Source: Palleronia aestuarii (lineage in GTDB: Bacteria; Pseudomonadota; Alphaproteobacteria; Rhodobacterales; Rhodobacteraceae). Taken from it: a stretch of 64,000 nucleotides of DNA. Shown here piece by piece: positions 32,293 through 63,643 of the stretch (positions are counted from its first letter, which is position 1; each line of letters opens with the position of its first letter). The notes beneath the pieces were generated by a model, which saw only the letters and a program-made list of their open reading frames with translations, did no database searches and had not been told where the DNA came from. The DNA lies in the NCBI RefSeq assembly GCF_003253995.1, contig NZ_QKZL01000018.1, positions 1 to 64,000 of the forward strand. The letters are read 5' to 3'. A program made the translations under genes and the position numbers.

Positions 32293-32501
32293 CGCACGCC
32301 GCCTGGCGGGAACGAGGGAAGGGGCGCGGGGAGGAGCGGGCCATGCCCTTCCGCCTAGCCGATAATCCGGGCGGGGGCGAGACGGGCAAGCAGCGGCGAG
32401 ACGGGCACACCTTCACCACGATGGGCGGCGGGCCTTGTTATATCTCGCGAATATGCGAAACCCTGCGGGCCACGCGCGCAATGCTTCGAAGGACCTTATC
32501 C

Positions 32502-36332: not shown

Positions 36333-36354
36333 GCGGGACGCCCCCGCCTCCCGA

Positions 36355-36378
36355 AGATGTTTCGCGCGCGAAACATCT
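36355..36378. promoter_or_regulatory. parS: parS-like centromere site 1 (24-bp perfect palindrome)
   Basis: The 18-bp core TGTTTCGCGCGCGAAACA (36358-36375) sits in a 24-base perfect palindrome between the convergent epimerase and ugd genes. The same core recurs at 42638 and 44779, flanking or close to parAB. It resembles the chromosomal parS TGTTTCACGTGAAACA with a two-base-longer, different centre, as expected for a plasmid ParB. Confidence 0.8.
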
Positions 36379-36386
36379 CCCCGGCT

Positions 36387-39833: not shown

Positions 39834-40826
39834 TCAGCGCGACGCACGGCCCTTCACCCAGCCCAGGAAGGCGCGCGAGGGCACCGCAAGCCGCGGCCGG
39901 CCCGTGGCATCCCACCAGGCGCGCCATTCCGCCTCGAGCGCATGGACGTCCGCGCCCGGCGCGAGGACCCGCGCGGCGGCGAGCGTCTCCGCGTCGAGCG
40001 CCGCCAGCGCCGCCACGGGCACCCGCGCGCGGCGCTGGCTCACCCGGACCACGTCGCCCGGATCCTCCGCGAGGAGATAATCGGGCAGGCCGTTCTGCGC
40101 GATCATCCGGCGCAGTGCGGCGCGAAACACCCTGAGCGGCGCGGCGGATCCCGATTTCAGGTGCAGCGTGGCCATCCCCACCCGCCATTCCGGCTGGCGT
40201 CCGCAATGCTTGCGCGCGAGCTCGTAGACCCGCCGCTCGAGCGGCTTTCTGAGATGGAAGTAATCGCGGCTGAGCGTCAGGACCGATTTCGACAGGACCG
40301 CCCGCCAGAGCCATTCCGACAGCGTCACCCGGACCGAGACCATGCGCCCGCCCTTCGCCCGGCGCACGATCTCCCAGGCGTCGATCAGGCCGAAGCCACG
40401 CGTCGTCTCGACCCCGCCGGTGGCGATGTTGGTCGTGATCCGCGTGCCCGCGAGCCGCTCGAACGCCTCGCGCAGCCGGGCATAGCCGTCGCCCGACGTG
40501 TCGCGGTTGGTCGCCACGAGCAGGTCGTGCGCGCGCAGATGCAGATGACGCGACACCGCCCGGCCCGCATTGATCGCGGCCATGAGCTGGCTCACGCAAT
40601 AGATCAGAATGTCCTTGTCGTGGATGGTCGCCCGTCCCCGGACGGACGGCGTCACCGACACCTCCATGCCGTTATGGACGTAGTCGAGGATGCGCCGGTC
40701 GGGCCGCGTGGCGAGCGAGAAGATCGGGTGCTCCATGGATCCGAGATCGCCCTTGGGGCTCGCCCCGAAGACGTCGCAGAGGAAGAAATCCGCCCCGCCC
40801 CCGGTGATGTCGCCGCTTCCGGCCAT
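39834..40826 (-). CDS. repA: Plasmid replication initiator RepA (RPA-family, roseobacter RepA type)
   Basis: 330 residues, start ATG 40826 with GGAGG upstream. Sequence blocks fit the alphaproteobacterial replication initiator A family: DFFLCDVFGASPKGDLGSME, MEHPIFSLATRPDRR, IHDKDILIYCVSQL, YFHLRKPLERRVYELARKHCG; the central and C-terminal parts look like winged-helix DNA-binding domains. It should bind the three iterons that begin 100 bases upstream of its start and open the origin. It is divergent from parA. The RepA-type module without RepC distinguishes this replicon from RepABC plasmids. Confidence 0.9.
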   Translation of the reverse strand: MAGSGDITGGGADFFLCDVFGASPKGDLGSMEHPIFSLATRPDRRILDYVHNGMEVSVTPSVRGRATIHDKDILIYCVSQLMAAINAGRAVSRHLHLRAHDLLVATNRDTSGDGYARLREAFERLAGTRITTNIATGGVETTRGFGLIDAWEIVRRAKGGRMVSVRVTLSEWLWRAVLSKSVLTLSRDYFHLRKPLERRVYELARKHCGRQPEWRVGMATLHLKSGSAAPLRVFRAALRRMIAQNGLPDYLLAEDPGDVVRVSQRRARVPVAALAALDAETLAAARVLAPGADVHALEAEWRAWWDATGRPRLAVPSRAFLGWVKGRASR

Positions 40827-43726: not shown

Positions 43727-44602
43727 TCACTCCTTCAGGAGGCCGAGCAGGTATTTCCCGTAGGGGTTCTTCGCGAATTTCTCGCCCCGCGCCCTGAGGG
43801 CGTCGCGGTCGATCCAGCCCCGGGCGAAGGCGATCTCTTCCGGGCAGCCCACCTGCTGGCCCTGCCGCTCGCTCAGCGTCCGCACGAAATTCCCGGCATC
43901 GAGGAGGGAGCCGTGCGTCCCCGTGTCGAGCCAGGCGAAGCCCCGGCCCATCTGCGCGACGTCGAGGGACCCGTCGGCGAGGTACATCTCGAGGAGCGTC
44001 ACGATCTCGAGCTCGCCGCGCGCCGAGGGCGTGACCTTCCTCGCCCGTTCGGAGGCAGTCCCGTCGAGGAAGTAGAGCCCCGTCACCGCGTAATTCGACG
44101 GCGGCACCTCCGGCTTCTCGATGATGGCGCGTACCGTGCCGTCGCCATCGAAATCCACCACGCCGTAGCGTTCGGGATCGGCCACCCGGTAGCCGAAGAC
44201 CGTTCCCCCTGTTTCCCGCGCGGACGCCCGTTCGAGGTGCTGCGGCAGGTCGTGGCCGAAGAAGATGTTGTCGCCCAGAACCATGGCCGAGGCTGCGCCG
44301 TCGAGGAAATCCTCGGCCAGCAGATAGGCCTGCGCGAGCCCGTCCGGGCTCGGCTGGACGATATAGGTGAAGGCGAGGCCCCATTGCGACCCGTCGCCCA
44401 GCGTGCGCTCGAACTGGTCGCGATCCTCGGGCGTGGTGATGAGGGCGATCTCGCGGATCCCCGTCAGCATCAGCACGCTGATCGGGTAGTAGATCATCGG
44501 CTTGTCGTAGATCGGCAGGAGCTGTTTCGACACCCCGATCGTGATCGGATAGAGCCGCGTGCCGGAGCCTCCGGCGAGGATGATGCCCTTGCGCTTCGTC
44601 AT
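43727..44602 (-). CDS. rmlA: Glucose-1-phosphate thymidylyltransferase
   Basis: 291 residues. Nucleotidyltransferase signature ILAGGSGTRLYPIT (8-21) with SKQLLPIYDKPMIYYPISVLML, then LGDNIFFGHDL, FGYRVADPERYGVV, IIEKPEVPPSNYAVTGLYF and AWLDTGTHGSLLDAG, all diagnostic for RmlA. It makes dTDP-glucose, first step of dTDP-L-rhamnose. It is transcribed last in rmlC-B-D-A, each gene overlapping the next by four bases. Start ATG 44602 chosen by homology; an in-frame upstream ATG adds only 14 unconserved residues. Confidence 0.96.
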   Translation of the reverse strand: MTKRKGIILAGGSGTRLYPITIGVSKQLLPIYDKPMIYYPISVLMLTGIREIALITTPEDRDQFERTLGDGSQWGLAFTYIVQPSPDGLAQAYLLAEDFLDGAASAMVLGDNIFFGHDLPQHLERASARETGGTVFGYRVADPERYGVVDFDGDGTVRAIIEKPEVPPSNYAVTGLYFLDGTASERARKVTPSARGELEIVTLLEMYLADGSLDVAQMGRGFAWLDTGTHGSLLDAGNFVRTLSERQGQQVGCPEEIAFARGWIDRDALRARGEKFAKNPYGKYLLGLLKE

Positions 44603-45441
44603 GACGTCAACTCCTTCACGATGCGGACGAGCGCGGCGCGCCAATCGGCCGGCGGGATCCCGAAATCGGCCGTGAGCCCCGTGCAGTCGAGCCGGGAATT
44701 CAGCGGCCGCGCGGCCGGGGTCGGATATTCCGCCGTGGGGATCCCGGTCACGGCCACGTCCCGTCCCGCGGCGCGGAATGTTTCGCGCGCGAAACAGGCC
44801 CAGCTCGCGGCGGGCTGGCCCGCGTAATGATAGGTCCCGCCCCCCTGCCCGTCCGCCATCGCCCGGGCCATGACGACGAGCGCGTTCGCGATGCCGTCGG
44901 CCGGCGTCGGTCCCCCGACCTGGTCGTCGACGATGGAGAACGCGTCGCGGGTCTCCGAAAGCCGCAGCATGGTCTTCACGAAATTGCCGCCATGGGCGGA
45001 GAAGACCCAGGATGTCCGCAGGATCGCGTGCCGTCCCCCGGCCTCGCGCACGGCACGCTCCCCGGCGAGCTTCGTCCGCCCGTAGGCGTTGAGCGGTGCG
45101 CAGGCCGCGTCGGGGGCGCGGGGCGCATCGCCCGTCCCGTCGAAGACGTAGTCGGTCGAGACCTGCAGGAACGGCACGTCCAGATCCGCGGCCGCGCGCG
45201 CCATCGCGCCGGGGGCGTCGGCATTGATGCGCAGGGCCAGCGCCTCCTCCTCCTCGGCGCGGTCGACGGCGGTATAGGCGGCGGCGTTGATCACCGCATC
45301 GGGCCGCGCGGCACGGATCGCCGCCGCGCAGGCCTCGGGATCGGCGAGGTCCGCCCGGTCGCGTCCGAGCGCCGTGACGCCGGGATGCTCCTGCAGATGC
45401 GTGGCCACTTGGCCCGTCCGGCCAAAGACGAGGAGCTTCAT
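44599..45441 (-). CDS. rmlD: dTDP-4-dehydrorhamnose reductase
   Basis: 280 residues. NADP-binding [11 protein letters not shown] (6-16), [20 protein letters not shown] and the catalytic YGRTKLAGE (Tyr/Lys), then [29 protein letters not shown]. It performs the last step to dTDP-L-rhamnose. A parS-like palindrome lies inside this gene (44779-44796), encoding CFARET. Overlaps rmlA and rmlB by four bases each. Confidence 0.95.
44779..44796. promoter_or_regulatory. parS: parS-like centromere site 3, inside rmlD
   Basis: TGTTTCGCGCGCGAAACA within the rmlD coding sequence, read there as Cys-Phe-Ala-Arg-Glu-Thr. Identical in all 18 bases to the copies at 36358 and 42638; such exact conservation inside a gene is unlikely by chance. 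Confidence 0.78.
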
Positions 45442-46484
45442 GCCGACTTCCCCGTGCCGAGCCGTTGTCCCACGCCCTGGCGGTCCTGCAGGGCCCGCCA
45501 CCAGGGCTCGTTGTCGAGATACCAGGCGACCGTCCGCTCGAGCCCCTCGTCGAGCGTCACCGAGGGCCGCCAGCCCAGCTCCTCGCGGATCCGCGACGGA
45601 TCGATGGCATAGCGCAGGTCGTGTCCGGGCCGGTCGGCGACGAAGGTGATCAGATCGGCATGGGGGCCGTCCGCGGGCCTGAGCCGGTCGAGGATGGCAC
45701 AGATCCGCCGTACGAGATCGAGGTTCGTGGCCTCGTTCTCGCCGCCCACGTTGTAGCTGCGCCCCACCTCTCCCTTCGCCAGCACCGTCAGGAGCGCATC
45801 GGCATGATCCTCGACATAGAGCCAGTCGCGCACGTTCGCGCCTTCGCCGTAGACCGGGATCGGCTCGCCCGCGAGGGCGCGCAGGATCACGACGGGCACC
45901 AGCTTCTCGGGAAAGTGGAAGGGCCCGTAATTGTTCGAGCAATTGGTGAGCAGCACCGGCAGCCCGTAGGTCTCCCCCCAGGCGCGCACCAGGTGGTCGG
46001 ACGCGGCCTTCGAAGCCGAATAGGGGGAGTTCGGCGCGTAGGGGCTCTCCTCGGTGAAGAACCCCGTCGGTCCGAGTGAGCCGAACACCTCGTCGGTGGA
46101 GACATGGTGGAAGCGGAACCCCTCGGGCCGCCCCTCGGCCTCCCAGTACGCGCGGGCCGCCTGCAGGAGGTTGTAGGTGCCCGTCACGTTGGTCTCGACG
46201 AAGGCGCCGGGCCCGTCGATGGAGCGGTCCACGTGGCTCTCGGCCGCGAGGTGCAGCACCGCGTCGGGACGATGCGCCGCGAAGATGGGCCCGAGCGCGT
46301 CCGCGTCGCGCAGGTCGGCCTCGACGAAGGCATAGCCGGGCGCGTCCGCCACGGAGGCCACGTTGTCGAGGCAGGCGGCATAGGTCAGCGCGTCGAGATT
46401 GACCACCTCGTGCCCGCGCGCGATGGCGAGCCGCACGACGGCCGAACCGATGAACCCGGCCCCTCCGGTGACGAGCAACTTCAT
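45438..46484 (-). CDS. rmlB: dTDP-glucose 4,6-dehydratase
   Basis: 348 residues. NAD loop [14 protein letters not shown] (5-18), [35 protein letters not shown] (with the catalytic Asp/Glu pair), [12 protein letters not shown] (Tyr/Lys), [34 protein letters not shown] and [16 protein letters not shown]: the full RmlB pattern. Converts dTDP-glucose to dTDP-4-keto-6-deoxyglucose. Second gene of the rhamnose operon. Confidence 0.96.
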
Positions 46485-47047
46485 GCCGTGCCCTCCGGGA
46501 AGGGGGTGCCGATCTGCGACAGAAGCGGCGCCGCCGCGTCCTTGTCGGACAGGATCGCCGCGTCGGGGGAGAGGCCCCAGTCGATGCCGATCTCCGGATC
46601 GTCCCAGGCCACCGCGCCGTCGCAATCGGGCGCATAGAAATCCGAGCACTTGTAGATGATCTCGGTGTCGTCCGCCCGCGTGGCGAAGCCGTGCAGGAAC
46701 CCCGCCGGGATCAGGAGCTGGCGGCCGTTCTCCGCCGTGAGCTCGACGCCCACCCATTGCCCGTAGGTCGGACTTCCCGCGCGGATGTCGACGGCCACGT
46801 CGAGAAGCGCGCCGCGCCCGCAGCGCACGAGCTTGGCCTGGGCGTGCGGGGGACGCTGGTAATGCAGGCCCCTGACCGTGCCCGCCTGGGCGGAGAGGGA
46901 ATGGTTGTCCTGCACGAAATCGAGATCGATCCCGGCCTCGGCCATCCGCTCCCGGTTCCAGGTCTCCGCGAAGAAGCCGCGTGCGTCGCCGAACCGGCGG
47001 GGGGTGAGGATGAGGACGCCGTCGAGCGCCGTTCGGTCGACCTGCAT
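46481..47047 (-). CDS. rmlC: dTDP-4-dehydrorhamnose 3,5-epimerase
   Basis: 188 residues from ATG 47047, which has GAGG four bases upstream; an ATG at 47059 would add four residues. Cupin fold with [10 protein letters not shown] (24-33), FVQDNHSLS, the catalytic H62 in [27 protein letters not shown] and [13 protein letters not shown]. First gene of the rmlC-B-D-A operon, divergent from a GT2 gene with a 103-base gap between starts. Confidence 0.95.
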
Positions 47048-47150
47048 GGGGCCTCGCATGGGGATGTCGGATCGCCGCCACGCTTTATCGTGCTGTACCC
47101 GTCCTTGTGAACCGCTAATGCGGGATCAGGATGAACGGGCGGAGGTGCGG

Positions 47151-48151: not shown

Positions 48152-48976
48152 TCAGGCGTTCAGGATGGTGCGGTGGTAGCGGCCCATCAGGATCAGCCCC
48201 ATGACGAGGCAGATGAGGGCGATCGCGGCCACATAGGCGAGCGAGACGTAATCGGCGGCATAGCTTGGATAGATCCCGCTGCGCATCTCTCCGGTGATGT
48301 GGATGAGCGGAACCCAGTAGAGGATCGCCTGCACGTTCGCGGGCATGTCCTCGTAGAGGAAGAACACCCCGGAGACGATGAAGAGCGGCCGCATCGCGAT
48401 CGACCAGACGGTCTCCCAGACCGGAAAGAGGCCCATCAGCGCGCAGTTGAGCATTCCCACGCCGAGCCCGAGGATCATGGACATGCCGATCGCCGCGATG
48501 ACCGGTCCCATATCGACCGTGACCCGCGTATCGGCGGCGGCGAGGATCGCGAAGAGCAGCACGTAGGTGACGAGGATCCCCGTCAGCGCGTTCAGCACGA
48601 ACCGCGCCAGCACCGCGTCGAGCCAGGTGACGGCCGGATAGTAGAGCAGCGCGCGGGAGAAGCCGATCGAGCGCGCGATCTTGTTCGACAGGTCCTGGTA
48701 GAGCGTGAAGGGCAGGTAGCCCGAGGCGTAGAAGAGCAGGAAGCTGTTGCCGAGCGACGGGGTCCGCAGGAGAAGCGAGAAGCCGAAAGAGAGGATCAGG
48801 ATGCCGCCCAGGGGCTCGAGCAGCGCCCAGGCATAGCCCCCCGGGGAGCGGCCGTAGCGGGTCGACATCTCGCGCAGGATCAGCGCCAGGATCGCGCGGA
48901 AGGCGGGCAGGGAGCGGTTGACCCGGCGCAGCCGGCCAGGCTGTGGGGTCCGGGTTTCGGGCATGGCGGGAGGCAT
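48152..48976 (-). CDS. kpsM: Capsule/polysaccharide ABC exporter permease (KpsM/Wzm-like)
   Basis: 274 residues from ATG 48976 (an ATG four codons later is equally possible). ABC-2 type permease: the cytoplasmic amphipathic start FRAILALILREMSTRYGRSPGGYAWALLEP is diagnostic for KpsM/BexB/CtrC, followed by six membrane segments. With KpsT (50630) it would push finished lipid-linked polymer through the inner membrane, coupled to KpsE (49069). Transcribed away from kpsE, unlike the usual kpsMT pair. No KpsD/Wza-type outer-membrane protein is in the window. Confidence 0.9.
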   Translation of the reverse strand: MPPAMPETRTPQPGRLRRVNRSLPAFRAILALILREMSTRYGRSPGGYAWALLEPLGGILILSFGFSLLLRTPSLGNSFLLFYASGYLPFTLYQDLSNKIARSIGFSRALLYYPAVTWLDAVLARFVLNALTGILVTYVLLFAILAAADTRVTVDMGPVIAAIGMSMILGLGVGMLNCALMGLFPVWETVWSIAMRPLFIVSGVFFLYEDMPANVQAILYWVPLIHITGEMRSGIYPSYAADYVSLAYVAAIALICLVMGLILMGRYHRTILNA

Positions 48977-49013
48977 GGGCGCGGGCGATCCCGGACTGGC
49001 AATTGCGCTCGCT

Positions 49014-49042
49014 AATATGATAGAGCGGGATCGAAAAGACAA
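49014..49042 (-). promoter_or_regulatory. Predicted promoter for kpsM
   Basis: On the minus strand TTGTCT (49042-49037), 17 bases, CATATT (49019-49014); transcription would start about 30 bases before the 48976 start codon. The same AT-rich patch may serve kpsE on the other strand. Predicted by eye. Confidence 0.4.
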
Positions 49043-49068: not shown

Positions 49069-50379
49069 ATGAACAAGCCCCCCGACGGAGCCGCCGCGCG
49101 CGGGGCACCGGCCGCGTCCGGCCCGGACGGAACCGCCGCGCGCCGCGCCGCGCCGGCCAACAAGCCCGCCGGTGCGAAGAACCTGCAGGCCGTGCCGCCC
49201 GCCGCGCCCGCGTCTCCCGGCCCGGAGACGGAAGCGGCGGCACGTCCGATCGCGCGGCGCGCCGGCATGAAGTCGCGCCACTGGGGTCTCCTGGCGGGGT
49301 TCGTCGCCCTCGTCGCGCTCCCGCTTCTGGCCACGATCGTCTATCTCTGGGGGTTCGCGGAGGACCAGTACGCCTCGAGCGCGGGTTTCACCGTGCGCCA
49401 GGAAGAGGGCGGCGGCGCCTCCGAGCTTCTGGGCGGTCTGGCGCAGCTCGCAGGTACCGGCACCGGCTCGGACGGCGACATCCTCTACGAGTTCATCCAG
49501 AGCCAGGAGATGGTCCGCGAGGTCGATGCCGAGCTGGGGCTCCGGACGCATTACGCCGCGCCCTTCCCCGGCGATCCGGTCTTCGCGCTCTGGCCCGGCG
49601 CGACGATCGAGGATCTGCAGGATTACTGGCAGCGCATGGTGCGGATCTCCTTCGACCAGGCCTCGGGCCTCATCGAGGTGCAGGCGCTCGCCTTCACGCC
49701 CGACATGGCGCAGGACATCGCGGCGGCGATCGTGGCGCGCAGCCAGGACATGATCAACGATCTGAACCTGCAGGCCCGCGAGGACGCGATGCGCTACGCG
49801 CGCGAGGATCTCGACGAGGCGCTCGTCCGGCTCAAGACCGCGCGCGAGGCGCTGACCTCGTTCCGCACCCGTACCCAGATCGTCGATCCGGAGGCCGACA
49901 TCCAGGGCCGCATGGGAGTGATGGCCAGCCTCCAGCAGCAGCTCGCCCAGGCGCTGATCGAGTACGACCTCTCCGCGCAGACCGCCAATCCGGGCGATCC
50001 GCGCCTCAGCCAGTCGCGCCAGCGCATCGAGGTGATCCGCAACCGCATCGCCGAGGAACGCCAGAGCTTCGCCTCCGACGATACCCAGATGGGCGGGGTC
50101 GGGGAGGATTACCCCTCGCTCATCGCCGAGTACGAGGGCCTGAGCGTCGACCGGGAATTCGCGGAGGAGACCTACCGCGCGGCGCTCGCGGCCGTCGATC
50201 TCGCCCGCGCCAAGGCGCAGCGGCAGAGCCGTTACCTCGCCACCTACATCGCGCCCACCGCGCCGGAGATGGCCGAATATCCGCGCCGCGTCATCCTGAC
50301 GGCCCTCACCGCGCTGTTCCTGACGCTGGTCTGGTCGATCCTCGCCCTCGTCTACTACTCCATCCGCGACCGTGGGTGA
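49069..50379 (+). CDS. kpsE: Capsule export inner-membrane protein (KpsE/BexC/CtrB-like PCP)
   Basis: 436 residues: an Ala/Pro-rich cytoplasmic N terminus (1-65), a first membrane segment (GLLAGFVALVALPLLATIVYLW, about 73-94), a long periplasmic coiled-coil region (for example LDEALVRLKTAREALTSFRTR, SRQRIEVIRNRIAEERQSF, 220-350) and a C-terminal segment (VILTALTALFLTLVWSILALV, about 407-428). The KpsE signature SSAGFTVRQEE and YLATYIAPTAPEMAEYPRR are clear. It bridges the ABC transporter to the outer-membrane channel. Followed by a terminator-like hairpin. Confidence 0.92.
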   Translation: MNKPPDGAAARGAPAASGPDGTAARRAAPANKPAGAKNLQAVPPAAPASPGPETEAAARPIARRAGMKSRHWGLLAGFVALVALPLLATIVYLWGFAEDQYASSAGFTVRQEEGGGASELLGGLAQLAGTGTGSDGDILYEFIQSQEMVREVDAELGLRTHYAAPFPGDPVFALWPGATIEDLQDYWQRMVRISFDQASGLIEVQALAFTPDMAQDIAAAIVARSQDMINDLNLQAREDAMRYAREDLDEALVRLKTAREALTSFRTRTQIVDPEADIQGRMGVMASLQQQLAQALIEYDLSAQTANPGDPRLSQSRQRIEVIRNRIAEERQSFASDDTQMGGVGEDYPSLIAEYEGLSVDREFAEETYRAALAAVDLARAKAQRQSRYLATYIAPTAPEMAEYPRRVILTALTALFLTLVWSILALVYYSIRDRG

Positions 50380-50629: not shown

Positions 50630-51304
50630 ATGATCGTCTTCGAGCACCTGACGAAGAGCTTCAACCTGCGCGGCATCCGCAAGGTGGTGATCGACGATCT
50701 CGACATGGTGCTGCCCACCGGCGCCTCGCTGGCGCTCCTGGGGAGGAACGGCGCGGGCAAGTCGACGCTCCTGCAGATGATCGCGGGCACGCTCCGGCCC
50801 GATCACGGGCGGATCGTGTCGGACGGCTCGATCTCCTGGCCGGTGGGCTTCGGCGGCTCGTTCCACCGCGATCTGACCGGCGCGCAGAACGTGCGGTTCC
50901 TGGCGCGCGTCTACGGCGTCGACACCGAGGAGCTCGAGGATTTCGTCGCCGATTTCGCCGAGCTCGGGCGGCATTTCCACATGCCGGTCCGCTCCTATTC
51001 GAGCGGCATGCGCTCGCGGCTGACCTTCGGCACCTCGATGGGAATCCCCTTCGACACCTATCTCGTCGACGAGGTGACGGCGGTGGGCGACAAGGCGTTC
51101 CGCCGCAAGAGCCAGACGCTCTTTCGCGACCGGATGCGGCAATCCTCCGCGATCCTCGTCAGCCACAACACCGAGGATCTGCGGCAATTCTGCGATGCGG
51201 GGCTGGTGCTCGAGGCGGGCCGTCTGGAATATTTCTCCGATCTCGAGGCGGCGATCGCGCGCCACGAGGAGGTGATGGCCGCCCCCCGTCCAAGCCTCGC
51301 CTGA
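50630..51304 (+). CDS. kpsT: Capsule/polysaccharide ABC exporter ATPase (KpsT/Wzt-like)
   Basis: 224 residues, the short KpsT form without a C-terminal glycan-binding domain. Walker A GRNGAGKST (38-46), SISWPVGFGGSFHRDLTGAQN (the KpsT-type WP..FGGSF loop), signature YSSGMRSRL, Walker B YLVDEVTAVGD, switch LVSHN. It energises KpsM. It follows kpsE but is separated by 250 bases containing the hairpin elements. Confidence 0.92.
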   Translation: MIVFEHLTKSFNLRGIRKVVIDDLDMVLPTGASLALLGRNGAGKSTLLQMIAGTLRPDHGRIVSDGSISWPVGFGGSFHRDLTGAQNVRFLARVYGVDTEELEDFVADFAELGRHFHMPVRSYSSGMRSRLTFGTSMGIPFDTYLVDEVTAVGDKAFRRKSQTLFRDRMRQSSAILVSHNTEDLRQFCDAGLVLEAGRLEYFSDLEAAIARHEEVMAAPRPSLA

Positions 51305-52306: not shown

Positions 52307-53380
52307 ATGTTGAATCGCGCCGCCCGCAAGACGCTCTATATCCATATAGGGCATTTCAAGACCGGCACGACGGCGCTGCAGACCTTCTTCGACACCAACC
52401 GGGCCGTCCTGAAGCGTGCGGGCCTCGACTATTCAAGCCTTCATCTCAATTTCAGCAAGCACTCGCGGCTGGCCTTCTCGATCTACCGCAAGGCGGGCAT
52501 CCGGACGCTGATGCATGGCTACGACATCCCCAAGGATCCGGCGGATCTCTGGGCTGGGCTCCGCGACTACGTCCGCGCCAGCTCCGCCTCGAAGGTGCTC
52601 GTCAGTTCGGAGGAATTCGCGCGCCTCGGCGGCTTTCCGGAGGCCGCGGCGATGCTGCCGGGGCTCGTGCGCGACTTCCGCGGCATCGACATCCGCATCG
52701 TCGTCTACCTGCGCTCGCCGGGATCGCATCTGCCGTCGTGGTACAACCAGCTCGTGAAGATGGGCCAGCCCGTTCCCGATTATACCAGCGCGATCCTCGA
52801 GACGATCGAGCCCGTGCATTACGATTACGGCCTGGCGCTCGCGCCCTGGATCGACACGTTCGGACCCGAGGCGGTGATCGTGCGCCCCTATTCCACGGCG
52901 ACGCGCTCGGATCACGGGCTCGTCTTCGACATGCTCTCGACCCTGGGGGTGGAGATCGACCCCGCGGCCCTCGATCTGGGGCAGGGCGATCCCAATCCGC
53001 GTCTCGACCCGGCGAGCTTCGCGGTCGCGCAGATGGTGGCGGAGACCGGCCTGCCGGAGCGGATGAAGCGCAACATCCTCTCCCGCTCGCAGGCCTTCTA
53101 CCGCGACCGGACGCTGCGCGACGCGCTCGCCCCCGACATGGAGCCCGTCCACCACCGGATCCGGCAGGGGCTCGGAACACTGGAGAAGCTGCCCCATAAC
53201 GGGGTGGATTGCGCCGGCTACGCCCAGGATCTGCCGGGCCCCGACGACATCGCGGAGATCGATCCCGGAGAGCTCGTCCCGTTCCTCTTCTCGGAGCTCT
53301 TCCTCACCCGCCAGGCTCTCAACCAGGCGGTGGCGCGGATCACCGCGCTCGAGAAGGCCGCGGCGGATTCGAAGGCGTGA
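52307..53380 (+). CDS. Sulfotransferase-like protein
   Basis: 357 residues from ATG 52307; upstream in-frame codons overlap the direct repeat and look non-coding. The P-loop-like LYIHIGHFKTGTTALQTFF (about 10-28) and a strand IVVYLRSPGSHLPSWYNQLVKMG (about 132-154) match the 5'- and 3'-phosphate motifs of PAPS-dependent carbohydrate sulfotransferases. A C-terminal coiled segment (RQALNQAVARITALEKAAAD) ends the protein. Its stop overlaps the GTG of the next glycosyltransferase gene, so the two are coupled. Confidence 0.82.
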   Translation: MLNRAARKTLYIHIGHFKTGTTALQTFFDTNRAVLKRAGLDYSSLHLNFSKHSRLAFSIYRKAGIRTLMHGYDIPKDPADLWAGLRDYVRASSASKVLVSSEEFARLGGFPEAAAMLPGLVRDFRGIDIRIVVYLRSPGSHLPSWYNQLVKMGQPVPDYTSAILETIEPVHYDYGLALAPWIDTFGPEAVIVRPYSTATRSDHGLVFDMLSTLGVEIDPAALDLGQGDPNPRLDPASFAVAQMVAETGLPERMKRNILSRSQAFYRDRTLRDALAPDMEPVHHRIRQGLGTLEKLPHNGVDCAGYAQDLPGPDDIAEIDPGELVPFLFSELFLTRQALNQAVARITALEKAAADSKA

Positions 53381-54903
53381 GGATCCTCTACTACAACTGG
53401 GTCGATTATCTCGACGACGAGGCGCGCGGCGGTGGCGTGTCGGTCTACCAGAAGAACGTGATGGCGGGCCTTGCCGGGCGCGAGGGGGTGGAGACGGGGT
53501 TCCTCGCCGCGGGCCTGACCTACGACCTGCCGCCCGGCCGCGCGCCGCGCTGGGAACGGATGCGTCATGGGCCCAAGGAAGACCGCGATCGCCGTTACGA
53601 CCTCGTCAATTCCGGCACGCTCGCCCCCGCGCATCATTCCTTCGGCGACCCTTCGCAGATCTCCCATCCCGCGACGGAGGCCGCCTTCTGCGACATGGTG
53701 GCGGCGACCGGCCCCTGGGACGTGGTGCATTTCAACAATCTCGAAGGGGTGCCCGCGAACGTGATGGCCGCGCTCAAGGCGCGGTTTCCCGAAACCCGGA
53801 TCGTCGTGGCGCTGCACAATTACTATCCGGTCTGCCCGCAGGTGAACCTCTGGCAGCGCGAGAGCCGTCATTGCGACGACTTCCTCGGCGGCGCGGCCTG
53901 CACCGGGTGCCTGCTGCACCAGCCCTCCGCCCGGCTCGTGCGCGCTGCCCACGGCGTCGCCTACCGCCTGAAGCGGGTAGGCGTCCGCCCCGGCACGCGG
54001 GCTTTCGACCTTCTCTTCACGAACGCCATGCGCGCGGGCCAGCGCGCCTCCCGCCTCGTGGGCGCGCTCCGCCGCCGCCTGCGCCGCGCGGCGCCCCCGC
54101 CGCGGATAGAGGGGCCGTCGGAGCGGGTCGAAGCGGTGCCTCGGGAGGCCGCGGCCGAGGGGCCGGGCAATGCCTTCGCGGCGCGACGGGCCGAGATGGT
54201 GGCGCTTCTCAATACCCATGCCGACCGGGTGCTCGGCGTCTCGGAGCGGGTCTCGCGGATCGCCGCGGATCACGGCGTCGACCCGGCCCGGATCCGCACC
54301 TCCTATATCGGTACGCGGGAGGCGGCGAAGTTCGCGGCGACCGCCCCCCGCGGGCCCCTGCCGCCCGAGGGGCGTCCGCTGCATCTCGCCTATCTGGGCT
54401 ACATGCGGCGCGACAAGGGGTTCTTCTTCCTCCTCGACGCGCTCGACGCGATGGATGCGGACCTCGCGCGGCGGCTGCACCTGACCGTCGCCGCGCGCAC
54501 CGGTCCCGCGGAGGCGATGGCCCGGATGCGGGCCACGGGGGCGCGGCTCGGCGGCCTCACGCATCACGACGGCTATACCCATGCCGGGCTCGACACGCTC
54601 CTCGCGGACGTGGATGCGGGCCTCGTCCCGGTCCTCTGGGAGGACAACCTGCCGCAGGTCGCGATCGAGATGCATGCCCGCCACATCCCGCTCCTGACGA
54701 GCGACCGCGGCGGCGCGCGGGAGCTCGCGAACTGTCCCGACATGGTGTTCCGCGCGGGCGATGCAGAGAGCTTCGCCGAACGGATCGCGGCGCTTCTCGA
54801 GGGCCGGATCGACATGGATGCCTATTGGGCCGGCGCGCGGGCGCCCACCTCCATGGAGGCCCATCTCGACCAGCTCCTGGAGATCTACGCGGGCCGCGAC
54901 TAG
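53377..54903 (+). CDS. Family 4 glycosyltransferase with long insert
   Basis: 508 residues, GTG start overlapping the sulfotransferase stop. N-terminal GT-B domain: GGGVSVYQKNVMAGLA, VVHFNNLEGVPANV, VVALHNYYPVCPQVNLW. A Cys-containing stretch (CDDFLGGAACTGCLLHQ, about 166-182) is typical of a GT4 subgroup. A basic, Ala/Pro-rich insert (about 225-275) separates the halves. The donor domain has LAYLGYMRRDKGFFFLLDAL and WEDNLPQVAIEMHARHIPLL with the second catalytic glutamate. Convergent overlap of four bases with the giant glycosyltransferase gene. Confidence 0.85.
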   Translation: MRILYYNWVDYLDDEARGGGVSVYQKNVMAGLAGREGVETGFLAAGLTYDLPPGRAPRWERMRHGPKEDRDRRYDLVNSGTLAPAHHSFGDPSQISHPATEAAFCDMVAATGPWDVVHFNNLEGVPANVMAALKARFPETRIVVALHNYYPVCPQVNLWQRESRHCDDFLGGAACTGCLLHQPSARLVRAAHGVAYRLKRVGVRPGTRAFDLLFTNAMRAGQRASRLVGALRRRLRRAAPPPRIEGPSERVEAVPREAAAEGPGNAFAARRAEMVALLNTHADRVLGVSERVSRIAADHGVDPARIRTSYIGTREAAKFAATAPRGPLPPEGRPLHLAYLGYMRRDKGFFFLLDALDAMDADLARRLHLTVAARTGPAEAMARMRATGARLGGLTHHDGYTHAGLDTLLADVDAGLVPVLWEDNLPQVAIEMHARHIPLLTSDRGGARELANCPDMVFRAGDAESFAERIAALLEGRIDMDAYWAGARAPTSMEAHLDQLLEIYAGRD

Positions 54904-57900
54904 CCCCGCCCCAGCCGCGCGCGGACGAAGGCGCTGTCGGTCCACCGGACCGAGAGGGCGGGGTCGTGGATCCGGTCGCGCCCCTCCGAGGCGAGGGCGA
55001 GATAGCGGCGGTATTCCTCCGCGTCGTTGAAGTGCTGGCGCCGCGCGACCTCCTCCTGCGCCTTGCGGCGGAAATCGGCATTGTACTTGAAATGCGCGAA
55101 GAGAAGCTCGCGCCGCGCGATCCGTGCGCCGGAGACGTAATGCAGCCCGTCCGAGAGCCGCATCCACGGCGCGGGCCGCAGGAGCGCGTATTTCTGCGCC
55201 ACGAAGAGCGTCGGCCGCGATCCCGGAATGAGCCGGTGGCGCAGCGCGCTCGTCCAGGTCTCCCCGGTCGAGAACGGCCCGCGCAGCGGCGTGCATCTCA
55301 GGAACGGTCGCGCCTCGGTGAAGCCCGCCTCCGCGAAGGGATCCGCCTCGAACTGCGCCTCCGCGAGCGAGCCTTCGGGATACATGTCGAGCATGAAGAC
55401 CCGCGCCGCGTCGGCTTTCGCGAAATCCGGCCCCGAGAGCAGATCCGCGAGCCCCTCGGCCTGCGGCCATTCCCAGACGAGAAGCTCGTCGGCATCGGCC
55501 ACCAGCGTCCAGGCGCCGGGGCGAAGCCCCATCAGCGCGTTTTGCCAGGCCACGCCGTAATGCGACACCGCGTACGCGGTATCGACGGAGAAGGCGGCCA
55601 CGTCGGGCTCTTCCGCGAGCCGCTCGAGCGTGCCGTCGTCGGAGCCGTTATCGGCCACCGCGAAGGCCGTGACGCCCATGCGGCGGTAATGGTCGAGGAA
55701 ATGCGGCAGCATGAACGCCTCGTTCCTCATCACCGCCACGACCGCGACGGGGGCCTGCCGGAAGGCCGCGACGCGGCGGTCGGGGCTCACGAGCTCGAGC
55801 GCGCCGGAATTGCGGCCGAGCCGGATCTCCTCGTGGGCCGGCCAGAGCTTCTTCGGGGTGAGGGCGGGAGAGGAGAGCCGCGCCCGCGCCGCCGTCTGCG
55901 CCTCGGGGGCGTCGAGATGGACGAGCCGGACCGGCGCCGCGCGCGACGCGTCGAAGCCGTTCACCCAGGCGGGCACCGCGACCCCGCCGGGCCGCGCCCT
56001 GCGGCGCACGGTGACCCGGTGGCCCGTCGGATCGACGGCGATCCCCGAGAGCGACAAAAGATCGCCCACGAGCTTGTCCTCCATGAAGGAGGCGGCCGCG
56101 AGGCGCTGGCCCAGGGGGGTCGCGGCGGCCCGCGCCAGCGCCTCCATCGCGGTCCGCGAGAGCGCGTAGCCCGAGCCGCCATCGGCGTAGGAGGAGGGCT
56201 CCGGCGAGCGGTCGAGCTCGAACCGGCCCCGCTCGGTCCGCGACTTTCCGTTGTGCCAGGCCCGGTCGAGCTGCCCCGGCACGCGGGTGAGGGCCCGCCC
56301 GTGATAATCGGACCGCGCGTAATCCTGCGCGGCGAGGAACCCGTCCACGTCGAGGAAGCAATCGTCGTCGATCTTGATCATGTAGGCGTGGCCGGTATGG
56401 CGCCGGACCCACTCGACGGCGGCCAGGACCTTGAAGGGCAGCCCCTCGTAATCGTCGGGCGCGTCGAGATGGACCACGCGCCCCTCCCGCCGTCCGTCCC
56501 CGCCGCCCACCGCGACGATCCAGGGGACGCCCCAGGCCTCGAGCCCGTCCGCCCAGGCCGCCGCGAGCGGAGGGATCCGCGTCTCCAGATGCGCGCGGCA
56601 GGAGATCACGACGACCACCGTGTCGAGACGGCCCGCAGGCGCGGTGCCGGACGGCGCGGGCGGGGGCAGGGGGGTGTCCGCGAAGAGGGCGCGGGCGGCC
56701 CGCGCGGAAGCCGTGTCGCGCCGCGAAATCCCCCAGAGCGCCTGGACGACCGCCGGGGCCGCGACCGCCCCGTCCTCCTCCGCGCGCCAGCCCGCGAGCC
56801 GGTCGAGGAGCGCCCGGGCCACCGGCGTCTCCGCCGCGACATCGCCCAGGGCGCCCGCCGCGCGCAGGGCCAGCGCGATCCCCAGATGGTCCGCCTCCGC
56901 CCCCGCGATCCGGCCCATCGCGGCCCATTCCGGCTCTTCTCCGGTCCAGGCGGCGGGATCGGCCCGGGCGAGCCAGGTCACGAGCCGCGCCGTCAGCGCC
57001 GGCTCGTGCGGCTCCGGCACGTCCGGATAGAGCTCGGGCAGGGCGGCGGTGGCCCGCGCCGCGAGGCCGTCCTCCATCGCCTCCGCGCCGGGCATCGCCA
57101 TGTGGCGCAGGAGGGCCGTGCCGGGCGTCCCGGGGCCGACCGGGCCGCCTGCAGGTCCGAGCAGGTCGCGCGCCGCCCAGGTCGCGGCGGGCGCGGGGGC
57201 GAGGGTGTCGAGCGCCCGGGCGAGGCGCGCGCGGATCTCCGGCGAGAGCGGCCCCGCCGCCGCCGCGTCCCGCGCCGCGTGCACCGCCTCGAAGGCGTCC
57301 CTTGCGGGAGCGAGGCCCGCGCGCATGTCCCGCGGCAGGTCCGCTTCGTCCACCGCGTCCCAGAAGGACGGCGAGAGCGCGTGGACCGAGAGCGCCACGT
57401 CGCGTGCGCGGGCGGCAAGCTCCGGCGCCATCCCCTCCGCGCCGAGAAGCGCCACCGTCGCGCGCACGAGGAGCCGGCAGGGCGTGCGCGCCCAGTAATC
57501 GCCCGCCCGCGCCGCGAGGAAATCGAGGAAGGCGGTGGCGAGCCCCATGCGGACCTCCTCCGGAAGGTCCTGGCGCCCGAGCGCGCGCGCGATCGTCCAG
57601 CCCAGGGGCGCGGTCGCGATCCATTCCCCGCTCTCGGGCACGAGCGAGGCCATCGCGGCGAGAAGGTCGTCGAACCGCTCCTGCTCCAGCAGGAAGGGCA
57701 GCATCGCGGCATTGCTCCAGAGATGCCAGCCGGGGACGAAATCCGCATGGCCCTCCGCCGCGGCGTGGGCCACGAGCCCGGGCAGGTCGGCGTCGTGGAG
57801 CGCGAAGACCTCGGAGAGGTTGAGAAAGAGCTTGCGCCGCGGCACCGCTTGCAGTGCGAGGTCGTCCACGAGGTCGAGGAGCGGAAGCTCCGGCGCGACC

Positions 57901-60827
57901 GCCTGCACCTCGGCGAGCCGGGTGAGGCAGGCATCGATGACGGGCTGGTCGGGGTCGGCGGGGGGCAGGAACGGATCGGGCCGGCCGTCCTTCGGGCCCT
58001 CCGCGGGACCGTCCGCGGCGAGATAGGTCTCGAGCCCATAGTGCCGCGCGAGCCGGGCGAGGCCATCGCGCGCGCGAGAGGATAGCCGGGGCGCGAGCCC
58101 GGCGAAGCGGACATGCTCGATCGCGAGCATCGCCGCTTCCGGATCGCCGGGCAGCGTCGGATCGGTGAGCATCGCTTGGATCCGGGCGGCGAGGTCCGCG
58201 CGGGTGAGGACCAGCGGCGCCGCGCCCGCGAGCCGCAGCGTGAGCGCCGCGCCCTCTTCCACGCCGCGCCAGACCCGGCCGGGCAGGGGGCCGCGGAGCC
58301 CGAGCCCGCCCGCCACGCGGCTCGCGAAGAGCGGCGGCGGGGTCCCGCCGTCCATCTCGATCGCGGGGATCTCCGGCCCCGGTACATGCGCCGAGAGCAT
58401 CAGCCGCGCGTCGAGCGCGAGGGCGCCCCGCGCTCCGGGGGCGAGGTCGGCGGGGTTGATCTCGACCCCGGCGGGAGCGAAACCGCCCTGCAGGTCGAGC
58501 CAGGCGATCCGGTGGAGATCCGTGAAATCCCTCTCCGCGAGGTCGCCCGCGCCGAGCCGGGCCACGCGCACCCCGTCGATCCGGAGGTCGAGCCGCGGCG
58601 CGTCGAGCGCGATCTCCACCTCCGCCTCCGGGCCATCGAACGCCACCGGAAAGATCCGCTCCTCCCCCCAGTCGTCGCCGTGCCGATCGTTCAGCACGAC
58701 CCGGCCCTGGTCGGGCTGGAGCGAGAGATGGAGCAGGATGCGGCGGCGCGTAGCGTCGAAGAGCGCGAGATTGGCGAAGCGCGCGTCGCGAAACCCCGCC
58801 CGGGCACGAAGCGTCGCGCGGGGCCCGAGCCGGGCGGCGCGAAGCGGCACGTGAAAGGGCACGATGGGCGGCACGGGCGCGGGCGCGGGCCCCGAAAGCG
58901 CGGCGATCCGCGCCCGGAACGCGGCCCGCCCGCCCCGGATCAGGCCGCGCGGATCCATGAGCGGCGCGAGGCGGGGGTCGAGATCGAAGGCGATCTCCGG
59001 ATCCCAGCCCGCCGCGGGCGCGCCCACCCCTCCGAGCCGGCGCCACGCCACGGCCCAGGCCGCGCCGCGCAGAAAGCGTGCCTGCGCCTCGGGAGCGCGC
59101 GGTCGGTCGATCTCCGCGGCGAGCGCACGGGCGAAAAGCCGCCGCTCCCAGCCCCGGGGCAGGCGGTCGCGCGCAGGCCGGGGCAGCGCGCGGAGCATCG
59201 CGTCGTGGCTGCGGGCGAGGTCGCGCGCCGTCCCGCCCGGGCCGGCGGGGCGCGCGGGCGCCATTCCGGGCCAGGCCAGATAGGCCGCGCGCTCTGCGAG
59301 GAGACCCGCGCCCAGGATCGTGGCCCAGCCGCCGCGGGGGCCATGGCCGGGCGCGAGGCCGTGCTCCGCGAGGAAGGCACGGTCGAAGATCCGCGCCGGG
59401 AGTTCGGGGGCGAGGGCCAGCGCGTCCTCGGGGGCGAGGGCGAACGTCCCGGTCACGGGCGGGGCCGGGTCGCGTTCGGGCGGGGCGAGGAATCCCGAAT
59501 GGATGCCCCCCTCCGGCAGCCGGAATTGCGACACGCCGAGCTGCGCGCCGGTTTGAAGCATCGTGTCGACCCAGGCCCCGAGCGCGCCGAGCACGGGGAT
59601 GTCGCCGGGCGCGAGAAAGACGACGAACCGCCCCTGCGCCGCCGCGAGCGCCGCGCCCCGTCCGCCCGTCACGCGGCGCAGCGCCGGGGGATCGGCGGGG
59701 CCGGACCTCTCTGCGCCGGGCGGGACACAGAGAAGGATCTCGTGGCCGGGCAGGGACGGATCGGCCAGGGCGTCGAGCGTTGCCGCGAGCGGCGCCGGAT
59801 CCGGCGGCGTCTCTCCGTCGTCGAGGATGACCGTGAGCGGCAGCTCGCCCGCCATCTCGAGCGCCCAGGACCGCGCGAGCCCCGGATCCCAGCCGGGTGC
59901 ATAGGCGAGCCCGCGACCTGCGAGATACCGCCCCGCTTCGGCTGCGAAGCGGGTGCGCCGGGCTGGGTCGCGCAGCGCGCTCGAACGTTCGAAGACGAGG
60001 CGGGAGGCGATCCGCTCGAGCGCCTCCTCCCCGTGCGACTTGCCCCCCGCCGCGATCACGCCCGCGATGTCGTCGATGACGCCGAATTGCTGGGAGACGC
60101 GGTCGTCGTCGGCCGCGGTGATCTGTCCCGGCCGTCCGCGGGTCTGCAGGTAGAGCGTCTGCGGCAGGTGCAGGATATGGTCGGTGCGTGCCGCCGCGCG
60201 CCAGTAGAAGCCGTGATCCTCGAACCAGGTGCCCTCGGGAAAGCGCAAGTCCTCGACGAGCTCGCGACGGTAGAGCTTGTTCCAGGCCGACGGGAAGTGC
60301 CGCGCCACCTCCCGCCAATCGTCGAGCGCGTAGCGCCGCGCCGCGGGATGACGGGCGAGATCGGCCGCGCCGTGGATCGCCGAATGGGTGGAGCCGTGGC
60401 CCGGCACGCCGGGATCGGTGCCCACGAACCGGATCGCGCAGGCGACCCAGGAGGCGCCGTCCTCCTCGAGCGCGCGCGCCATCTGCGGGTACATGTCGGG
60501 CATCACCCGGTCGTCGCCGTCGACGAAGCCCAGGAGATCACCCGTGGCGAGCGCCATCCCGGCATTCCGCGCCGCCGAGAGCCCGCGATTGTCCTGCGAG
60601 ATCAGGCGGAAGCGCGGATCGTCCCCGATCGCCTCCTCCGCGCGCGCGCGGCTGGCATCGGTGGAGCCGTCATCTATCACGATCACCTCGAGATCGACGC
60701 CCACCTGCGCGCGGAGGCTTGCGAGGCAGGCCCCCACATGGTCCTCGACGTCGAAGACCGGCACGACGACGGAGATCCGCGGGCGGCGGTCGGCGTCGTC
60801 CGGGGCGGTCGGCTCTTTCTCCTTCAT
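54900..60827 (-). CDS. 1,975-residue multi-glycosyltransferase with internal galectin-like domain
   Basis: Start ATG 60827. Domains in order: an active-looking GT2 (RISVVVPVFDVEDH at 17-30, VIDDGSTD 50-57, FVDGDD 101-106); a degenerate GT2-like unit (LTVILDDGE 331-339, GRFVVFLAPGD 399-409); a galectin-like beta-sandwich (about 657-780) with FANLALFD, the H...VVLND...WGEER pattern and IDGVRVARL; a long helical region (about 800-1390); a GT31/fringe-like domain with IKIDDDCFLDVDGF (about 1475) and GGSGYALSR; and a C-terminal Glyco_tranf_2_4/GT92-like domain (VMRNEAFMLPHFLDHYRRMG about 1697, VADADELLVWEW). No signal peptide or obvious membrane segment. It probably builds several linkages of the capsule repeat. 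Confidence 0.85.
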   Translation of the reverse strand: MKEKEPTAPDDADRRPRISVVVPVFDVEDHVGACLASLRAQVGVDLEVIVIDDGSTDASRARAEEAIGDDPRFRLISQDNRGLSAARNAGMALATGDLLGFVDGDDRVMPDMYPQMARALEEDGASWVACAIRFVGTDPGVPGHGSTHSAIHGAADLARHPAARRYALDDWREVARHFPSAWNKLYRRELVEDLRFPEGTWFEDHGFYWRAAARTDHILHLPQTLYLQTRGRPGQITAADDDRVSQQFGVIDDIAGVIAAGGKSHGEEALERIASRLVFERSSALRDPARRTRFAAEAGRYLAGRGLAYAPGWDPGLARSWALEMAGELPLTVILDDGETPPDPAPLAATLDALADPSLPGHEILLCVPPGAERSGPADPPALRRVTGGRGAALAAAQGRFVVFLAPGDIPVLGALGAWVDTMLQTGAQLGVSQFRLPEGGIHSGFLAPPERDPAPPVTGTFALAPEDALALAPELPARIFDRAFLAEHGLAPGHGPRGGWATILGAGLLAERAAYLAWPGMAPARPAGPGGTARDLARSHDAMLRALPRPARDRLPRGWERRLFARALAAEIDRPRAPEAQARFLRGAAWAVAWRRLGGVGAPAAGWDPEIAFDLDPRLAPLMDPRGLIRGGRAAFRARIAALSGPAPAPVPPIVPFHVPLRAARLGPRATLRARAGFRDARFANLALFDATRRRILLHLSLQPDQGRVVLNDRHGDDWGEERIFPVAFDGPEAEVEIALDAPRLDLRIDGVRVARLGAGDLAERDFTDLHRIAWLDLQGGFAPAGVEINPADLAPGARGALALDARLMLSAHVPGPEIPAIEMDGGTPPPLFASRVAGGLGLRGPLPGRVWRGVEEGAALTLRLAGAAPLVLTRADLAARIQAMLTDPTLPGDPEAAMLAIEHVRFAGLAPRLSSRARDGLARLARHYGLETYLAADGPAEGPKDGRPDPFLPPADPDQPVIDACLTRLAEVQAVAPELPLLDLVDDLALQAVPRRKLFLNLSEVFALHDADLPGLVAHAAAEGHADFVPGWHLWSNAAMLPFLLEQERFDDLLAAMASLVPESGEWIATAPLGWTIARALGRQDLPEEVRMGLATAFLDFLAARAGDYWARTPCRLLVRATVALLGAEGMAPELAARARDVALSVHALSPSFWDAVDEADLPRDMRAGLAPARDAFEAVHAARDAAAAGPLSPEIRARLARALDTLAPAPAATWAARDLLGPAGGPVGPGTPGTALLRHMAMPGAEAMEDGLAARATAALPELYPDVPEPHEPALTARLVTWLARADPAAWTGEEPEWAAMGRIAGAEADHLGIALALRAAGALGDVAAETPVARALLDRLAGWRAEEDGAVAAPAVVQALWGISRRDTASARAARALFADTPLPPPAPSGTAPAGRLDTVVVVISCRAHLETRIPPLAAAWADGLEAWGVPWIVAVGGGDGRREGRVVHLDAPDDYEGLPFKVLAAVEWVRRHTGHAYMIKIDDDCFLDVDGFLAAQDYARSDYHGRALTRVPGQLDRAWHNGKSRTERGRFELDRSPEPSSYADGGSGYALSRTAMEALARAAATPLGQRLAAASFMEDKLVGDLLSLSGIAVDPTGHRVTVRRRARPGGVAVPAWVNGFDASRAAPVRLVHLDAPEAQTAARARLSSPALTPKKLWPAHEEIRLGRNSGALELVSPDRRVAAFRQAPVAVVAVMRNEAFMLPHFLDHYRRMGVTAFAVADNGSDDGTLERLAEEPDVAAFSVDTAYAVSHYGVAWQNALMGLRPGAWTLVADADELLVWEWPQAEGLADLLSGPDFAKADAARVFMLDMYPEGSLAEAQFEADPFAEAGFTEARPFLRCTPLRGPFSTGETWTSALRHRLIPGSRPTLFVAQKYALLRPAPWMRLSDGLHYVSGARIARRELLFAHFKYNADFRRKAQEEVARRQHFNDAEEYRRYLALASEGRDRIHDPALSVRWTDSAFVRARLGRG

Positions 60828-60902
60828 GGGGGTGTTTTTCTTCACCGAAGGATCGGGGTAAAGGACAATCCGGTGCAAGCGAGGCTTTCCAAAGGACGTG
60901 CC

Positions 60903-61604
60903 ATGGTTCCCCATCCGCACCTGAACGCGCCCGCGGGGGGGTATGTCTTCGTCGTGACCTACGGCCGGTCCGGCTCGACGGTCCTGCAGATGCTGCTGAA
61001 CGCCATCCCGGGCTATTGCATCCGCGGCGAGAACGGCAACACGCTCTATCATCTCTTCCGCGCCTGGCACGTCCTCGAGACGACGGATTCGATCCGTCGC
61101 CTACGCCGGAACGGCAAGCGGACCGCCCCCCATCAGCCCTGGTACGGCATCGAGGACGCGGCCGCGGCGGATTACGCGCGCGACCTCGCGGACGCCTTCG
61201 TGCGCGACGTGCTGCGGCTGCCCCAGGGCACGCGGGTCGGCGGGTTCAAGGAGATCCGCTTCCACCAGGCCGGGGCCCATCTCGGGGCCTATCTCGACTT
61301 CATGGCGATGGCCTTTCCCGGCGCGCGCTTCGTGATCAACACCCGCAATCTCGCGTCGGTGGCCCGGTCGAGCTGGTGGGCCCGGCAGCCGCCCGACAAG
61401 GTGGCCGAGATGCTGCGCCCGGCCGAGCAGGCCTTCGCGGCCTTCGCACAGCGCCATCCCGCGCGGACGATCGCGCTCCGCTACGAGGATTACGCCGCGG
61501 CGCCGGAGGCGCTGGCGCCGCTCTATGCCTTCCTGGGCGAGCGGTTCGACGGCGAGGCGGTCGCCCGGCTCATGGAGCGCCGGCTCGATCATTCGACGGG
61601 CTGA
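60903..61604 (+). CDS. Sulfotransferase-family protein
   Basis: 233 residues from ATG 60903 with AAAGGA six bases upstream. The PAPS loop is YVFVVTYGRSGSTVLQMLLN (14-33), followed by RGENGNTLYHLF, GFKEIRFH and the 3'-phosphate-type strand ARFVINTRNLASVARSSWW (about 140-158), as in GT-associated Stf0-like sulfotransferases. Divergent from the giant glycosyltransferase with only 75 bases between starts, so the two are probably regulated together. Confidence 0.85.
   Translation: MVPHPHLNAPAGGYVFVVTYGRSGSTVLQMLLNAIPGYCIRGENGNTLYHLFRAWHVLETTDSIRRLRRNGKRTAPHQPWYGIEDAAAADYARDLADAFVRDVLRLPQGTRVGGFKEIRFHQAGAHLGAYLDFMAMAFPGARFVINTRNLASVARSSWWARQPPDKVAEMLRPAEQAFAAFAQRHPARTIALRYEDYAAAPEALAPLYAFLGERFDGEAVARLMERRLDHSTG

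Positions 61605-62434: not shown

Positions 62435-63643
<1,209 letters not shown>

Follow-up and report, generated by a model that had tools for sequence, protein, structure and literature searches.

The protein and its units

Galectins are usually regarded as a eukaryotic lectin family, and a bacterial glycosyltransferase with a galectin-like domain raises the questions of whether this domain is genuine, how it came to lie within the enzyme and which task it might perform there. The locus was analyzed within a stretch of 64,000 nucleotides of Palleronia aestuarii (contig NZ_QKZL01000018.1, positions 1 to 64,000; hereafter the window). The initial annotation had described the gene at 54900..60827 (minus strand) as a four-unit glycosyltransferase with an inner galectin-like domain. 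This observation was confirmed by the single open frame of 1,975 amino acids, by Pfam and by fold. On the 1,975-residue protein, Pfam detected GT2 (residues 19-194), GT31 (1450-1597) and Glyco_tranf_2_4 (GT2_4; 1701-1787), and a galectin match (690-752) remained sub-threshold with an E value of 0.0066.

All units lie on the minus strand. The GT2 unit (residues 13-330; 59838..60791) matched Glycos_transf_2 with 7.4e-36 and has intact acidic motifs, DD at 52-53 and DGDD at 103, the D columns being invariant across 10 alignment rows. It is followed by a degenerate GT2-like unit (residues 325-599; 59031..59855), in which the acidic motif is changed to APGD at 406, as the initial annotation had recognized when it counted four glycosyltransferase-type units including a degenerate one. 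The galectin domain, based on fold and sequence evidence, comprises residues 662-812 (58392..58844). Directly behind it lies a second beta-rich stretch (residues 813-904; 58116..58391), which is modeled by AlphaFold as strands up to about residue 874 and helices thereafter.

The middle region (residues 905-1404; 56616..58115) of the window copy matched no Pfam family and its best PDB match was 0.35; single relatives gave weak Pfam matches in this region, the best being CSN8_PSD8_EIF3K at 1.4e-4. The GT31-like unit (residues 1405-1689; 55761..56615) carries DDD at 1487 and EDK at 1583 and scored 33.1 bits with Pfam GT31 (PF01762; cut-off 23). Galactosyl_T was matched in 12 of 12 members (E up to 0.1), the DDD and ED columns were invariant in 12 rows, and the unit had a PDB match to beta-1,3-galactosyltransferase 6. 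The C-terminal Glyco_tranf_2_4 unit (residues 1690-1975; 54903..55760) was assigned by Pfam and has a DADE motif and invariant columns. A hydropathy scan of the window protein found no clear membrane helix; the highest 19-residue mean was 1.69, within a GT2-like unit.

The galectin domain and its sugar-contact positions

Using structure prediction and fold search, residues 662-812 were assigned to the galectin beta-sandwich fold, in agreement with the proposal of the initial annotation; the fold matches include the Toxascaris leonina galectin (4hl0/8yzq) with about 16% identity. With Pfam PF00337, the window domain alone reached 21.4 bits and was just below the cut-off of 22.1, and the curated score was reached by relatives in five of seven genomes. 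The other 10 domains of our galectin profile A1 share 17-37% identity with that of the window. A chance match was ruled out: none of the 357 controls, reversed or shuffled, gave a match, and fold, motif and selection (see below) are concordant. By its fold, the domain is judged a genuine galectin, for which a carbohydrate-binding role is predicted.

The galectin signature is H-x-[NS]-x-R ... N ... W-x-x-E-x-R. Contact positions are named here H44, N46, R48, N61, W68, E71 and R73, after galectin-1; in the window copy, they comprise H700, S702, Q704, N713, W720 and E723 (58659..58730, minus strand). The H...N...W..E pattern noted initially was borne out. Over 19 copies, which include the frame-broken L042 and the short, divergent L043 and of which 11 built the aligning profile, H44, N61 and W68 were present in all 19, R48 in 17 and E71 in 18; the N46 position was serine in 18, and R73 was arginine in just 6. 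Pararhodobacter aggregans (L007) has arginine at R48 as well as at R73. None of 20,000 random draws of 7 columns from 141 matched the conservation of the contact columns. Five plasmid copies outside the profile building kept H, S, N and W (5/5 each) and, in four of five cases, R48 and E71. The nematode galectin shares H-x-S-x-R with the bacterial copies.

The contact site is altered in the clade to which the window copy belongs. This clade retains H, S, N and W, but R48 is replaced by glutamine in all three members, i.e., in the window copy (Q704), in Palleronia pontilimi (L006) and on a plasmid of Palleronia LCG004 (L068). E71 is retained in the window copy and gone in the other two, and R73 of the window copy is isoleucine. 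L006 is the sister of the window copy on the tree, from which L068 is absent. Because one contact arginine is glutamine, the ligand preference has probably shifted in this clade, as judged from the sequences.

Relatives, gene fusion and selection

Whether the same architecture occurs in other Rhodobacteraceae, as the initial annotation had anticipated, was answered positively by genome and plasmid searches. A contig search returned 14 loci, of which L001-L011 are of this kind (L008 being incomplete); in L012-L014, the match is confined to transferase units. Five further intact copies were obtained from genomes of the family and five from closed plasmids. The order galectin, middle region, GT31, GT2_4 was constant in 21 of 21 intact copies. 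The claim of four units on one chain, however, holds for only part of them: GT2 and degenerate GT2 are fused in front in 11/21 (window, L001, L002, L006, L011, L036, L037, L065 from Tropicibacter oceani, L067, L068, L069), whereas in 8/21 (L003, L004, L005, L007, L010, L038, L040, L066) this pair forms a separate tandem gene and the galectin is N-terminal in the second gene. In L039, the pair lies on the opposite strand, and the stretch searched around L009 showed no such pair. Two contig pieces from a single MAG, L063 and L008, are compatible with the split form and were left out of the counts.

The galectin domain is therefore the start of a second protein, which was fused to the first in part of the family, and no insertion into the middle of an enzyme. 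On a tree of 16 rows (7 fused, 8 split; L039 taken as split), the distribution of both forms requires two label changes, and we infer fusion rather than repeated splitting as the direction. A sequencing artefact or false fusion was ruled out, since four closed plasmids contain a single long CDS and fused copies group together on the tree; these CDSs of 1,797-2,021 amino acids were annotated by others. Five plasmid records name such proteins merely glycosyltransferase or glycosyltransferase family 2 protein.

For dN/dS, two close pairs were used (L003/L004 and L007/L010), both from other clades than that of the window. The galectin domain gave 0.13 and 0.16, near GT31 (0.08, 0.12), GT2_4 (0.12, 0.16) and GT2 (0.23, 0.16) and below the middle region (0.29, 0.29) and the degenerate GT2 (0.43, 0.36). 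A vestigial galectin domain is disfavoured by these values and stays a rival for the clade of the window only.

Genomic setting

The gene is flanked by a convergent GT4-type glycosyltransferase gene (53371..54903, plus strand; Pfam Glyco_trans_1_4 6e-11 and tblastn) and a divergent sulfotransferase-family gene (60846..61604, plus strand, start provisional; Sulfotransfer_3 1.5e-14). UDP-galactopyranose mutase (glf) is encoded at 62435..63604 (minus strand; GLF 1.1e-74). An ABC exporter consists of a permease (48152-49015, minus strand; ABC2_membrane) and an ATPase (50630-51304, plus strand; ABC_tran), between which lies a presumed KpsE-like gene (49069-50379, plus strand) with no Pfam match and a plasmid counterpart annotated as sugar transporter. 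A dTDP-rhamnose operon (43727..47059, minus strand) was recognized from its translations; related plasmids have rfbABDC annotated in the same order. The genes at 32343-37709 belong to GDP-mannose and UDP-sugar metabolism by type and are of the mannose-1-phosphate guanylyltransferase and phosphomannomutase types and of the epimerase and UDP-glucose/GDP-mannose dehydrogenase families; by their predicted products, they suggest additional sugars in the polymer.

A RepA replication initiator (39834..40826, minus strand; RPA 7.4e-95) suggests a plasmid replicon, and with RepA, ParAB-like and dTDP-rhamnose genes the replicon of the window resembles annotated Roseobacter plasmids. Next to repA, at 37842-39641 (minus strand), lies the gene of an RTX-repeat protein that weakly matches M10 peptidases, and M10-type CDSs are close to the cluster on two related plasmids as well.

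Conservation of the surroundings extends to the export and sulfotransferase genes, and the order of the exporter genes is shared by related plasmids. In the stretches searched around the 11 first-found relatives, GT4 was present in 9, the ATPase in 8 (a weak ATPase match of L008 excluded) and the permease in 8. In contrast, glf was near only 5 of 19 distinct loci (L002, L005, L006, L038, L040), the flanks of some loci being short, and in two of five plasmid stretches; since it is sparse, galactofuranose is no established constant partner. In Phaeobacter, deletion of the rhamnose operon reduces attachment according to the part of the source available (PMC11481893), and by analogy this suggests a role of the window's polymer in surface attachment.

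Proposed function

In the reading which we consider moderately probable, and which is derived from the sequence, the protein would be a large synthase using its galectin domain as an acceptor-gripping module for a galactose-bearing chain. The product would be a sulfated surface polysaccharide, presumably containing rhamnose and galactose, which would be built in the cytoplasm and then exported by the KpsMTE-type ABC system. The galectin may hold the part of the growing chain that bears a beta-galactoside beside the GT31-like and GT2_4 units; such a grip would direct further sugars to the right chain and could allow more than one transfer per binding event. Observed in favour of this are the fold, the site residues conserved in the family, selection on the domain, its constant association with GT31 and GT2_4 and the surrounding polysaccharide genes; galactose is indicated by GT31, a family of galactosyltransferase type, and by glf close by in the window. 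Counted against it were the spacing of about 590 residues between galectin and GT31 in the sequence and the galectin-10 entries prominent among the fold matches of the window domain; galectin-10 is one of several animal galectins in which the site is altered and which bind different sugars or have little lectin activity. The changed contact positions in the clade of the window, the Pfam score just below the cut-off and the sparse occurrence of glf were likewise counted against it.

The conserved contact sites would also fit if the domain were a sensor of chain length or chain end, which we consider unlikely. It would then bind a finished or modified (e.g., sulfated) galactose end, and binding would stop synthesis or pass the chain to the exporter in a Wzt-like manner; the carbohydrate-binding domain of Wzt plays a comparable part in O9a export. 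The conserved position of the gene next to ABC-exporter and sulfotransferase genes is consistent with a sensor, but the domain is fused to transferases in all 21 intact copies and not to the ABC ATPase.

Quite improbable is a full assembly line, in which all four glycosyltransferase-type units work in turn on one galectin-held chain. Acidic motifs are intact in three of the four units, and 11 of the 21 intact copies have all units on one chain, but one unit is degenerate and the GT2 pair is a separate tandem gene in eight copies, on the other strand in L039 and not found in the stretch of L009. As a whole, the earlier interpretation is partly supported. It is hardly probable that the fold now serves as a structural or dimerisation module and has lost galactoside binding, at least in the clade of the window: glutamine at R48 in all three members and the loss of E71 in two of them point that way, but H, S, N and W persist even there, R48 and E71 are kept across the family as a whole, and purifying selection was found in two pairs from other clades.

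Distribution among bacteria

Among 295 genomes of the family, 12 gave a match with the galectin profile and 11 with that of GT31, and 10 genomes (the window's own counted) matched both; of the 12 galectin-positive genomes, G262 is chance-like and G207 is broken by a contig end. PF00337 at an E value of 0.001 matched in three of 385 genomes of the class, that of the window and two more, each time in a glycosyltransferase protein. At 1e-4, no match was obtained in 398 genomes of the phylum, a limit which missed the window's own copy too and is uninformative on absence. Profile A1 at 0.01 gave seven matches in 398 genomes of the phylum: two strong ones, in G250 and in the window's genome, and five marginal ones. 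The alignments of four marginal matches, those other than L030, were inspected, and each of them lacks the full motif.

A second design was found in two genomes of another alphaproteobacterial family, in which frames of 1,223 and 1,282 residues (L072:5475-9143 and L073:4686-8531) carry GT2 and GT25 units and, close to the N-terminus, a galectin, PF00337 being above its cut-off (2.6e-9). The existence of this second galectin-fronted synthase was counted in favour of the grip. GT25, like GT31, includes beta-galactosyltransferases, so that in both designs the galectin is joined to a galactoside-making transferase family.

Two short frames depart from these layouts. L043:206-2356 (minus strand) encodes 717 amino acids, a size near that of the plant GALT proteins, with galectin and GT31 profile matches and without GT2_4; Pfam at 0.01 gave no match. 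L062:5698-7896 (minus strand; 733 amino acids) has the reversed order, Glyco_tranf_2_4 (by Pfam) ahead of a GT31 match obtained with our own profile (3e-14) and not with that of Pfam. In this divergent protein, no galectin was detectable, which was counted against the grip.

Comparison with known systems

KpsC, WbdA, WbbM and GlfT2 have multiple glycosyltransferase units per chain and belong to ABC-exported or galactan systems, and in GlfT2 a beta-sandwich adjoins a glycosyltransferase unit. To our knowledge, none of them has a galectin domain, and they differ from the window protein in their glycosyltransferase families. Animal and fungal galectins, such as that of Toxascaris leonina (4hl0/8yzq), are free lectins, whereas the window's is a module of a bacterial enzyme and has glutamine for R48.

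The initial statement that galectins are chiefly known from animals and fungi omitted plants: in Arabidopsis GALT1-GALT6, a galectin (PF00337) is N-terminal to GT31 (PF01762) on one polypeptide, as described in the available parts of the sources (PMC4687291, PMC4431829). This plant family is the nearest precedent, and the bacterial side shows the same arrangement in 21 of 21 intact copies. The differences, as far as these parts of the sources go, are that plant GALT proteins, of about 670-700 amino acids, sit in the Golgi membrane as type II proteins, whereas the bacterial protein has no clear membrane helix; that the galectin-GT31 gap is 47-73 residues in GALT2 and GALT5 compared with about 590 in the window protein; that GT31 is the sole transferase in plants, whereas the bacterial protein has further units, with GT2_4 after GT31; and that the bacterial setting is that of an exported polysaccharide. 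According to the accessible portion of PMC8667403, what the galectin domain does in the plant enzymes is unknown, and galactose holding is suggested.

In open-licence full-text literature on galectins and biofilm plasmids, no paper on bacterial galectin-glycosyltransferase proteins was found, most subscription papers being outside this scope. The word galectin is absent from the main text, as available, of two lectin-prediction papers of bacterial or general scope (PMC7778903, PMC8206207), and it is used in the available part of a fungal survey (PMC8227253). Human GT31 enzymes are said to carry a galectin domain in a passage of PMC9321575, which was not relied on here.

It is conceivable, though we hold it doubtful, that bacteria use galectins as intracellular chain grips in synthases and have recruited them at least twice, in the galectin-GT31-GT2_4 design (Rhodobacteraceae, Methylobacterium) and in the galectin-GT2-GT25 design of another alphaproteobacterial family, and that the plant galectin-GT31 enzymes work in the same way, perhaps through shared ancestry. 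If true, a conserved bacterial galectin branch in polysaccharide synthases would place the fold in intracellular biosynthetic work. This branch offers systems in culturable bacteria, and its copies, some of them plasmid-borne, could open the question of what galectins do beside glycosyltransferases to direct test.
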